Below the pieces are notes generated by a model. That model ran no database searches and was not told the origin of the DNA. It saw only the letters and a program-made list of their open reading frames with translations. A stretch of 62,967 bases of DNA from Lactiplantibacillus xiangfangensis (lineage in GTDB: Bacteria > Bacillota > Bacilli > Lactobacillales > Lactobacillaceae): positions 8,092 to 71,058 of the forward strand of contig NZ_JQCL01000089.1 in assembly GCF_001438845.1 (NCBI RefSeq). The letters run 5' to 3'. Each line of letters begins with the position of its first letter. Positions within the stretch are counted from its first letter, which is position 1. Shown piece after piece: positions 47,261 to 49,208 of this stretch. The position numbers and the translations under genes are program-made.

Positions 47261-47869
47261 ATGCATAAATTTATCGCGATGGTCGGAACCAACTCGACCG
47301 AATCAACTAACCGCAAATTATTGCAGTACATGCAAAGTCACTTTGCTGACCAAGCTGAAATTGAATTAATGGAAATTAAGGACTTGCCAATCTTTAATAA
47401 GCCTGAAGACAAAAAGGTTCCTGCGCTAGCGCAGAGCATGGCGGATAAGATTTCTGATGCTGACGGGGTCATTATTAGCACGCCAGAATATGACCATTCG
47501 GCACCAGCCGTTTTAATGAACGCCCTCGAATGGCTTTCATTTTATATCCATCCGCTGGTTGATAAACCCGTTATGATTATTGGGGCTTCGTACGGTTCTT
47601 TAGGAACATCACGGGCCCAAGCGCACTTGCGTCAAATCTTAGATTCACCTGAACTACGGGCGCGGATCATGCCAAGTTCTGAATTCTTATTAGGACATTC
47701 CTTACAAGCGTTTGATGACGCGGGCAACTTAGTAGACGAACAAAAAGTGGCTAAGCTTGACGGCTTATTCGCAGATTTCCAAGTTTTCGTTGAAATTACC
47801 CAAAAGTTAACGCATGCGAATGCCGCTAACAAGCAAGAAGTTCGGGATCTTGACTGGGATAAGTTATAG
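47261..47869 (+). CDS. NADPH-dependent FMN reductase, flavodoxin-like
   Basis: A 202-residue protein of the NADPH-dependent FMN reductase family: phosphate-binding start MVGTNSTESTNRKLL, STPEYDHSAPAVLMNALEWLS (flavin ring contact, typical TPEY-H) and IIGASYGSLGTSRAQ. It reduces FMN, quinones or azo compounds in related enzymes. It lies 15 bases upstream of a longer paralogue with which it shares the whole domain, and is the first gene of the operon. AAGGAG precedes ATG 47261. Confidence 0.9.
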   Translation: MHKFIAMVGTNSTESTNRKLLQYMQSHFADQAEIELMEIKDLPIFNKPEDKKVPALAQSMADKISDADGVIISTPEYDHSAPAVLMNALEWLSFYIHPLVDKPVMIIGASYGSLGTSRAQAHLRQILDSPELRARIMPSSEFLLGHSLQAFDDAGNLVDEQKVAKLDGLFADFQVFVEITQKLTHANAANKQEVRDLDWDKL

Positions 47870-47884
47870 AAGGGAGTTAAACTC

Positions 47885-49159
47885 ATGAAATTAGTTGGAA
47901 TTGCGGGCTCAGTTGAAGATCATTCTTACAACCGGACCTTATTAAAATTTATTGCAAACCATTTTAGTGACATGGTTGACGTTGAAATATTGGATATTCA
48001 AGATGTCCCAATGTTTAATCAGAGTGATGACCAAACTGATGGGGAAGCCGTTCAATACTTAAAGCGCAAAATCGAAGGTGCTGACGGGGTCATTATCGCC
48101 ACACCAGAACATAATCACACCATCACGGCGGCTTTAAAAAGTGTGATTGAATGGTTGTCATTCAAGATTCACCCAATGTCCGGCAAACCCGTTATGATTG
48201 TCGGAGCTTCATACTATGACCAAGGTTCATCACGGGCACAGTTGAATTTACGTCAGATTTTGGAATCACCCGGGGTCGACGCCGTTGTGATGCCTGGTAA
48301 TGAATTCTTATTGGGCGACGTTAAACAGGCGTTTGACGATCAACACAACCTCAAAGATGACCGGACGATTAGCTTTTTAAAGGAAACTTTAGGCAAGTTT
48401 ATCAAGTTTGTTAAAGTGATTAACTCGATGAACAAGAAGGCTGATGACGATGACTGGCAGAGTGAAGATCTTAATGCAACGGGGAGTGTACCGACGACTA
48501 TTAAAGGCCTGAACATGCACGCCGCTGACTGGGTCGACCAAGCCACTGCAAAGACGAACGCGGTCACTGGTAACACCTATGTCCGGTTGGACTGTGGGGT
48601 TTTGACGGTCGACCAGTTGAATTACTTCCTTAATTCAATGCCAATGGAACTGACCTTCGTGGATGCGAATAACCAGTTCTTATACTATAACCACCAGACT
48701 GACGCCAAGAACATGTCAGCTTCCCGGAAGCCAGCACAAGTTGGAAATCCACTCGCTGACTGCCATCCAAAGCGGGCGATTCCTCACGTTAAACAAGCAA
48801 TTCACATTTTACGGACGGGCAAGACGGACTTATTTAAGCTTCCCGTACCAAGCAACGGTGATAAGTGCGATATGCACTATTACCAAGCGATGCACAATGA
48901 TAAAGGCGAATTCCAAGGGGTTAACGAATTCGTATTGGATATCTTACCAATCGTTAAGTACTACCTTGGCTTAACTGGCCAAAAGTTAGTTAAAGATCCG
49001 AATGCTAAGACTGATGCCGTTTCAGGTGCTTCATCTAAAGCAACGACACCTAAACCTGACGAAGTTTCAGGCGCTTCAGCTGATACCGATGAGGCACCGG
49101 TTGAAAAGAGCGAAGCACCAGCAGTTGATGAAGTTTCAGGCGCATCAGCTAACGATTAA
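47885..49159 (+). CDS. FMN reductase - PAS_10 fusion with triple flavinylation tail
   Basis: A 424-residue three-part protein. Residues 1-180 are a flavodoxin-like NADPH-FMN reductase domain (IAGSVEDHSYNRTLL, TPEHNHTITAALKSVIEW). Residues about 240-362 resemble PAS_10 (MPMELTFVDANNQFLYYN, NPLADCHPKRAIPHV, GEFQGVNEFVLDILPI). The low-complexity tail carries three copies of the covalent FMN attachment motif D-x-x-S/T-G-A-S/T: DAVSGAS (377-383), DEVSGAS (392-398) and DEVSGAS (415-421). ApbE-type flavin transferases attach FMN to the last Ser/Thr of that motif. No apbE is in the window. It has no signal peptide, so flavinylation would be cytosolic. Confidence 0.85.
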   Translation: MKLVGIAGSVEDHSYNRTLLKFIANHFSDMVDVEILDIQDVPMFNQSDDQTDGEAVQYLKRKIEGADGVIIATPEHNHTITAALKSVIEWLSFKIHPMSGKPVMIVGASYYDQGSSRAQLNLRQILESPGVDAVVMPGNEFLLGDVKQAFDDQHNLKDDRTISFLKETLGKFIKFVKVINSMNKKADDDDWQSEDLNATGSVPTTIKGLNMHAADWVDQATAKTNAVTGNTYVRLDCGVLTVDQLNYFLNSMPMELTFVDANNQFLYYNHQTDAKNMSASRKPAQVGNPLADCHPKRAIPHVKQAIHILRTGKTDLFKLPVPSNGDKCDMHYYQAMHNDKGEFQGVNEFVLDILPIVKYYLGLTGQKLVKDPNAKTDAVSGASSKATTPKPDEVSGASADTDEAPVEKSEAPAVDEVSGASAND

Positions 49160-49169
49160 ATTTAATAAT

Positions 49170-49208
49170 GAAAGCAGTCACTCGCAAAATTGCGGGTGGC
49201 TTTTTTTG
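49170..49208 (+). terminator. Terminator after the flavin reductase operon
   Basis: AAAGCAGTCACTCGC pairs with GCGGGTGGCTTT, followed by TTTTT. The gap from here to 49391 shows nothing further that I recognise. Confidence 0.88.

Follow-up and report, generated by a model that had tools for sequence, protein, structure and literature searches.

Multi-copy flavinylation motifs on the disordered tail of a cytosolic FMN reductase-PAS protein of Lactiplantibacillus and its small FMN reductase partner

Hydrogen peroxide formation in the probiotic Lactobacillus johnsonii has been assigned to the FMN reductases FRedA and FRedB together with a PAS protein of unexplained role, and most work on covalent flavinylation by ApbE concerns extracytosolic proteins. 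Both subjects meet in one gene of Lactiplantibacillus xiangfangensis, found in the 62,967-nucleotide stretch of DNA analysed here (the window), whose product joins an FMN reductase domain (FMN_red), a PAS domain and a C-terminal tail with three ApbE-type motifs. What several covalent flavins would do on such a chain is the question that this locus raises. A sequence-only reading had proposed that they form an electron wire from an NADPH domain to a partner; its observation was confirmed, and its interpretation was partly supported.

The gene encodes the large subunit of a two-protein system consisting of a small FMN_red protein and an FMN_red-PAS-tail protein (Table 1). The two genes, an adjacent FMN_red pair as in FRedA/FRedB-type systems, probably form an operon. 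The proposed fusion of FMN_red with a PAS_10-like domain was borne out by Pfam. The closest solved folds of the FMN_red domain in Foldseek were the FMN/chromate reductases 1RTT and 3SVL, and the PAS_10 domain, the sole match of its kind in the host genome, matched 2QKP, the PAS domain of Streptococcus mutans SMU_1151c, by both sequence and fold (Foldseek). By sequence this domain has two PDB relatives, both uncharacterised, and nothing specific on its ligand was found among the papers listed for DUF438, PAS and haem. Neither FMN_bind (PF04205) nor FAD_binding_2, the catalytic domain of HcrB-type reductases, matched the 424-aa protein at Pfam E values up to 1. In an AlphaFold model based on an alignment of 38 of the 43 available fusions, the FMN_red and PAS domains were confident and the tail was disordered. 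By architecture rather than by accession, the protein would be the counterpart of L. plantarum lp_2732, which has been named as an FMN reductase-PAS fusion (PMC4500961) and was detected in the L. plantarum proteome, with a change of -1.50 in the comparison made there (PMC5430759).

TABLE 1 Features of the two-gene locus, in window coordinates.
Feature	Position	Strand	Basis or remark
Small FMN_red subunit, 202 aa, FRedA-like	47261..47869	+	Stop 15 bases upstream of the fusion gene
FMN_red-PAS_10-tail protein, 424 aa	47885..49159	+	ATG-start ORF; Lactiplantibacillus
FMN_red (flavodoxin-like NAD(P)H:FMN reductase), residues 1-145	47885..48319	+	Pfam PF03358, E 5e-38
PAS_10 domain, residues 245-353	48617..48943	+	Pfam PF13596, E 6e-28
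Predicted disordered C-terminal tail, residues 375-424	49007..49156	+	AlphaFold pLDDT <50
Motif 1, DAVSGAS, residues 377-383, predicted acceptor Ser383	49013..49033	+	Sequence match to motif rule
Motif 2, DEVSGAS, residues 392-398, predicted acceptor Ser398	49058..49078	+	Sequence match to motif rule
Motif 3, DEVSGAS, residues 415-421, predicted acceptor Ser421	49127..49147	+	Sequence match to motif rule
Terminator-like hairpin and T run, directly 3' of the fusion gene	49177..49207	+	By-eye reading of sequence

All three tail motifs, located exactly where the sequence-only reading had placed them, satisfy the ApbE rule D-x-x-[S/T]-G-A-[S/T], in which replacement of Gly by Ala lowers flavinylation to about 50% (PMC12052999). 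They exceed chance expectation: when the 62-residue tail was shuffled 1,000,000 times, one motif arose in 3,408 cases, two in a single case and three or more in none, and shuffling the whole protein 200,000 times gave one motif 600 times and two motifs never. A full-length relative was present in all 21 genomes of the genus, host included (72-100% identity; 72-98% for the other 20), with three canonical motifs in 11 genomes and four in 10; one extra copy was degenerate in one species (DEVSAAS). Across the 21 aligned orthologues, D377, G381, A382 and S383 of motif 1 and D415, S418, G419, A420 and S421 of motif 3 were invariant, motif residues overall being invariant or nearly so while the linkers varied in length and sequence. 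A recent DNA repeat was rejected as the origin of the tail, since the same residues often differ in codon between copies, with an identical codon in 135 of 353 same-residue comparisons within a gene (15 of the 20 orthologues outside the host genome). Because codon choice often differs within a gene, the copies are held by selection at the protein level. The tail of the 424-aa protein is very likely flavinylated.

Among 397 sampled Lactobacillaceae genomes, a full ApbE was encoded in 141 of the 142 with a strong match to the PAS-tail region (E<1e-45) and in 85 of the 255 others, counts being raw with respect to kinship and 27 genomes with only a weak ApbE match (E 4e-15 or worse) being scored as lacking the enzyme; the sole strong PAS-tail genome without ApbE is 76% complete. 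FMN_bind had no match in 21 of these 141 genomes, so that the tail is the only recognised ApbE substrate there. Another 29 genomes carried ApbE with neither a strong PAS-tail match nor FMN_bind, and 19 of them had a tail on FMN_red under a relaxed motif rule (Gly replaceable by Ser or Ala, the first Ser/Thr by Ala or Gly, and Ala by Pro), placed directly on FMN_red in ten and accompanied by a diverged PAS in nine, with ApbE in the fetched stretch in 18 of 19; two of these tails (G308, G039) had no canonical copy, and no tail protein was seen in the other ten genomes. Of the ten genomes with PAS-less tails, five (G154, G075, G105, G381 and G358) have a PAS-like frame beside ApbE, confirmed as PAS_10 in G075; no match to the PAS part came up in three (G337, G039 and G078).

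Gene linkage varied between groups. ApbE lay inside the fetched flanks of 13 of the 53 loci in named genomes, of 12 of 14 loci picked from other families and of both plasmid copies opened, and was absent from those of all 14 loci of the genus (13 named Lactiplantibacillus and one close MAG). In group g38, taken as Lactobacillus-like, the only ApbE of the genome is located at a distance of 0.9-2.0 kb from the FMN_red pair in 6/6 genomes, with the PAS-tail gene elsewhere. The host genome encodes three ApbEs: a lipoprotein beside a protein with two FMN_bind stretches, a cytosolic enzyme beside an FMN_bind-FAD_binding_2-FMN_red reductase, and a cytosolic orphan. By eye, no signal peptide was seen at the N-termini of two of them (L041 and L043) or in the 13 ApbEs beside PAS-tail genes in named loci, in agreement with the cytosolic setting claimed earlier; on this by-eye localisation, L041 and L043 would share the compartment of the 424-aa protein. 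The orphan grouped (100/99) with 16 ApbEs whose genes are linked to those for FMN_red or tail proteins, in a tree that sampled mostly FMN_red-linked enzymes rather than a broad FMN_bind-linked set. The lipoprotein ApbE, for its part, adjoins a lipoprotein gene (L042, 4162-5088) with two FMN_bind stretches and DVVTGAT motifs, probably an extracellular electron transfer protein.

Some match to the PAS-tail region occurred in 156 of 295 genomes of the order Lactobacillales. The scan of named genomes gave 53 loci, of which two with broken frames (L092 and L093) were excluded from the counts; the 51 intact ones comprised 42 fusions to FMN_red, each with a small FMN_red directly upstream, and nine stand-alone PAS-tails. 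Canonical motifs numbered zero in seven of these 51, one in six, two in seven, three in 13, four in 11, five in five and six in two; relaxed motifs ranged from 2 to 7, and from 2 to 9 across all PAS-tail proteins examined, which is the variation in repeat number among homologues that had been anticipated. The expectation that close homologues keep the Asp, Gly and Ala of the motif held within the genus; farther out, Gly is often replaced by Ser (DxxSSAS) and seven of the 51 have no canonical motif. All 14 hand-picked loci from other families of the order paired a small FMN_red with an FMN_red-PAS-tail protein.

The tail is carried by FMN_red-PAS fusions, by FMN_red alone or by stand-alone PAS proteins; it moves as a module. 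Two proteins of one genus (L201, 2796-5498; L202, 3000-5645; 882-901 aa) have an FMN_red domain and behind it three PAS domains; motif clusters before, between and after the latter add up to 8-9 relaxed motifs. On plasmids of Enterococcus faecium (L215, 286-5959) and L. paracasei (L216, 870-6756), apbE, the small FMN_red gene and the FMN_red-PAS-tail gene are flanked by insertion sequences, an arrangement that suggests a mobile cassette. All 12 g38 regions contained a stand-alone PAS gene, with three relaxed motifs in ten and tails apparently disrupted by frame changes in two (L134 and L138). Single-motif tails were found where the small FMN_red is not alongside (L185-L187, L189 and L190), which was suggestive of a strict motif-to-pocket stoichiometry; this was rejected, being broken by G108 and G078, where four relaxed motifs occur and the small partner was absent from the same search.

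Several variants were recorded besides. Stand-alone PAS tails with DTVTGPS, bearing Pro for Ala, occur in L066, L067, L070, L073 and L075 (mostly Ligilactobacillus), with no ApbE within the fetched flanks. The tails of L060, L061, L062, L171, L172, L206 and L215 consist wholly or mostly of DxxSSAS or DxxASAS, each beside ApbE, and represent either targets of an ApbE clade of relaxed specificity or decayed sites. In L162 (1453-3042), ApbE is followed by a 206-aa stand-alone PAS_10 protein (E 1e-14) with DTSTGAS and DASTGPS in its tail.

The pair was placed in a tree of 71 FMN_red domains, rooted at the midpoint. The small protein fell within a small-partner clade (25 rows, 100/99), and the large protein's FMN_red in another (25 rows, 95/97), together with those of other PAS fusions, of three tail-only proteins and of four long reductase fusions from the genus, whose own small partners sit in the small clade. 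This placement points to one old pair coupled to different covalent-flavin modules. In reductases that combine FMN_red, FMN_bind and FAD_binding_2, the covalent flavin relays electrons from NADH; the host genome encodes three of these, with their FMN_red rows outside the large-protein clade. The g38 pairs were separate from the window's rows and joined the diverged-PAS pairs (7 rows, 99/96; 7 rows, 99/91), where the small subunit rather than the large one is the closer to the large protein of the window. The link to L. johnsonii FRedA/FRedB is hence one of kinship of the pair and the PAS protein and not of clean orthology, since the g38 pairs lie outside the window's subclades. The g38 PAS protein L130 has a mass of 27.9 kDa, equal to the size given for the L. 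johnsonii PAS protein (LjPAS).

Among known systems, two Lactococcus FMN_red proteins (L. lactis and L. taiwanensis; WP_021723379.1 and WP_205872264.1) have C-terminal motifs that are flavinylated, as reported from E. coli co-expression with their own ApbE and from Ser/Thr mutants, and AlphaFold models placing the sites near the flavin pocket led to the proposal of a cofactor anchor (PMC11334425). They resemble the window protein as ApbE-linked Firmicutes proteins with FMN_red and a disordered C-terminal motif extension; unlike it, they carry one to two motifs and were modelled as homodimers, and the sections of the source at hand mention neither PAS, a second FMN_red subunit, nor a link to FRedA/FRedB or H2O2 (PMC11334425). 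PF03358 and the motif extension of this class are found in the window protein; apbE adjacency is lacking in the genus and found in many relatives. PAS_10 is present somewhere in the L. lactis control genome.

The L. johnsonii FRedA/FRedB heterodimer, required as such for FMN binding, is an NADH oxidase that uses NADH only, accepts FMN (Km 20 uM), is active with free FMN and makes H2O2 (PMC4500961), a cofactor preference at odds with the NADPH domain of the sequence-only reading. It shares with the window system the two FMN_red subunits and a PAS_10 protein, and differs from it in that LjPAS is a separate protein treated as a regulator and that L. johnsonii-like pairs, g38 being taken as such, fall in other subclades. 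There, LjPAS preincubated with FRedB slowed activity or formation of the active complex and was not an acceptor; all proteins were produced in E. coli BL21, with no ApbE among the constructs named in the sections at hand (PMC4500961), and we infer that LjPAS so obtained was probably unmodified. The terms ApbE, tail, C-terminal and flavinylat have zero occurrences in the main text of that paper. Small and large FMN_red-bearing subunits also make up the hydroxycinnamate reductase HcrA/HcrB, a heterodimer likened to the L. johnsonii pair (PMC10295242); HcrB-type reductases have one motif in a folded FMN_bind domain and a catalytic FAD domain, in contrast to the PAS domain and disordered multi-motif tail of the window protein.

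Several covalent FMNs on one flexibly linked chain, predicted for the window protein, are also a feature of SaFMN3 and CbFMN4 (PMC8238504, PMC10339131); these are extracytosolic with each FMN in its own folded domain, whereas the window protein is cytosolic, has its motifs on a disordered tail and unites them with an NADH-oxidising domain in a single chain. Klebsiella pneumoniae has a soluble fumarate reductase with a single flavinylation site. That enzyme is cytosolic and flavinylated by an ApbE without signal peptide (PMC12052999); it is a fumarate reductase, unlike an FMN_red pair with several sites on a tail. The earlier generalisation that most flavinylated proteins carry one or two sites within a folded domain was not borne out as it stood, given up to 13 predicted sites in multi-flavin proteins (PMC8238504) and the tail-borne flavinylation demonstrated in Lactococcus (PMC11334425).

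From these data we tentatively favour, at a confidence just short of an even chance, a reading in which the FMN_red pair reduces flavins tethered to the tail and these pass electrons to O2 or another acceptor. The two genes would encode a cytosolic FRedA/FRedB-type NADH:flavin oxidoreductase whose large subunit bears a disordered arm with three covalent-FMN sites, to which a cytosolic ApbE, most likely the orphan (G000:C27), would attach FMN from FAD at Ser383, Ser398 and Ser421. Hydride from NADH would pass through the pair to the tethered flavins, which we infer to be the electron acceptors; on the arm they would constitute a built-in, non-diffusing FMN pool at high local concentration, where the studied relative needs free FMN. 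The reduced flavins would in turn reduce O2, forming H2O2, or another acceptor, whether a small molecule or a protein; the PAS domain would position or regulate the arm. Motifs beyond chance, co-occurrence with ApbE, ApbE linkage in relatives, the partner gene, the mobility of the tail, the related fusions with FMN_bind and FAD_binding_2, the H2O2-forming NADH oxidase activity of FRedA/FRedB and the reaction of reduced SaFMN3 with O2 support this reading. Points against it are the slowing effect of LjPAS, the activity of FRedA/FRedB with free FMN, the homologues without a canonical motif, the disrupted g38 tails, the ten ApbE genomes in which no tail was seen and the non-adjacent ApbE of the genus, and it is weakened further by the position of the g38 pairs outside the window's subclades and by the PAS-like gene adjoining five of the ten PAS-less tails.

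Those same two findings slightly strengthen the views of the tail as a cofactor anchor or as part of a sensor. The anchor is a serious rival, albeit an unlikely one: the tethered FMNs would be the prosthetic groups of the FMN_red pockets, several copies filling both pockets of the heterodimer with redundancy and covalent attachment preventing the loss of weakly bound FMN. It has been proposed for the flavinylated Lactococcus proteins from their models (PMC11334425), and it suits the weak FMN binding of FRedA/FRedB (KD about 2 uM; 0.58 FMN per dimer as purified) and the absence of flavin from FRedA and FRedB produced separately (PMC4500961), as well as the single-motif tails without an adjacent small FMN_red and the presence of at least two relaxed motifs in all 51 intact named PAS-tails. 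It sits less well with tails of 3-9 copies, more than two pockets can take, with the finding that some genera carry the tail on a PAS protein of its own, and with the four-motif tails of G108 and G078. The tethered-acceptor arm is favoured over a pure anchor because the module is mobile, the FMN_bind fusions are related and the copies exceed two pockets. PAS domains are commonly sensors, and the PAS domain and tethered flavins might control assembly of the FMN reductase in response to redox state or oxygen and not carry the main electron flow, an explanation that we hold to be improbable. LjPAS agrees with such control, its expression being subject to more than 3-fold repression in the absence of oxygen and the protein itself slowing formation of active FRedA/FRedB (PMC4500961), and in L186 a separate PAS_10 gene adjoins both ApbE and the FMN_red-tail gene, so that PAS tends to stay linked even when unfused; yet ten genomes carry the tail on FMN_red without PAS on the same chain, three of them without any PAS match, and three PAS domains with 8-9 relaxed motifs resemble capacity more than sensing.

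The directed wire of the sequence-only reading, which would lead from the FMN_red domain to one specific partner, is very unlikely. Several redox sites do lie in line on a flexible arm, and a role like that of multi-haem cytochromes has been proposed for multi-flavin proteins (PMC8238504); however, a disordered chain whose sites are nearly identical confers no direction, and no acceptor-like gene recurs among 18 flanking proteins from ten loci. For SaFMN3, reoxidised by O2 at 1.2 per second once reduced, the lack of built-in direction was itself remarked on (PMC10339131), and a flexible chain of this kind is better described as an acceptor arm or a cofactor anchor than as a wire. That the repeats are a low-complexity linker, not flavinylated in vivo, can hardly be credited at all: the tail is fast-changing and rich in Pro, Ala and Glu, and non-canonical SSAS and TGPS copies are frequent, but the seven-residue core is conserved while its flanking linkers diverge, ApbE accompanies the tail in 141 of 142 genomes and is linked to it in many relatives, and the Lactococcus tails have been flavinylated experimentally (PMC11334425).

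Both halves of the tethered-acceptor arm are already published, namely the H2O2 biochemistry of FRedA/FRedB and the flavinylation of FMN_red tails; no paper joining FRedA or LjPAS with flavinylation was found among the open-licence matches listed, and a disordered multi-flavin arm on one chain with an NADH-oxidising domain would be, as far as our literature searches show, a new arrangement. The finding links a reductase family that forms H2O2 to an arm with several flavinylation sites and makes its unexplained PAS partner testable. If the tail flavins are real acceptors, the proteins made in E. coli BL21 without ApbE and assayed with free FMN were an incomplete form, which could account for the apparent role of LjPAS as a brake. 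A broad generalisation would be that NADH:flavin reductases which form H2O2 in lactic acid bacteria use, in place of free FMN, a multi-copy flavin arm made by a dedicated cytosolic ApbE. Such an arm would follow the logic of a swinging-arm carrier, comparable to lipoyl or acyl-carrier arms; its three genes (apbE, small FMN_red, FMN_red-PAS-arm) could move together as a cassette, and one of its ApbE clades would tolerate the relaxed DxxSSAS. This generalisation is doubtful as a whole.

A conserved gene partner outside the operon was rejected, because the 18 flanking proteins, scanned alongside two PAS-tail proteins, varied: they included a pyruvate oxidase-like TPP enzyme, Pyr_redox, FAD synthetase, UbiD/UbiX-like, PTS and RtcB proteins, besides MatE, PepX, Nramp, MFS, asparaginase, NUDIX and others. 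In Loigolactobacillus jiayinensis (L064, 714-6769), ApbE and the PAS-tail gene lie near a pyruvate oxidase-like TPP enzyme, Pyr_redox_2 and FAD synthetase. Apart from ApbE and the small FMN_red, the only recurring flank protein was an HTH_3 regulator of 286 aa (L063 and L066); helix-turn-helix genes of about this length, at L063 5883-6743, L066 5766-6626 and L215 1113-1970 in records from different genera, possibly encode a regulator of the system.
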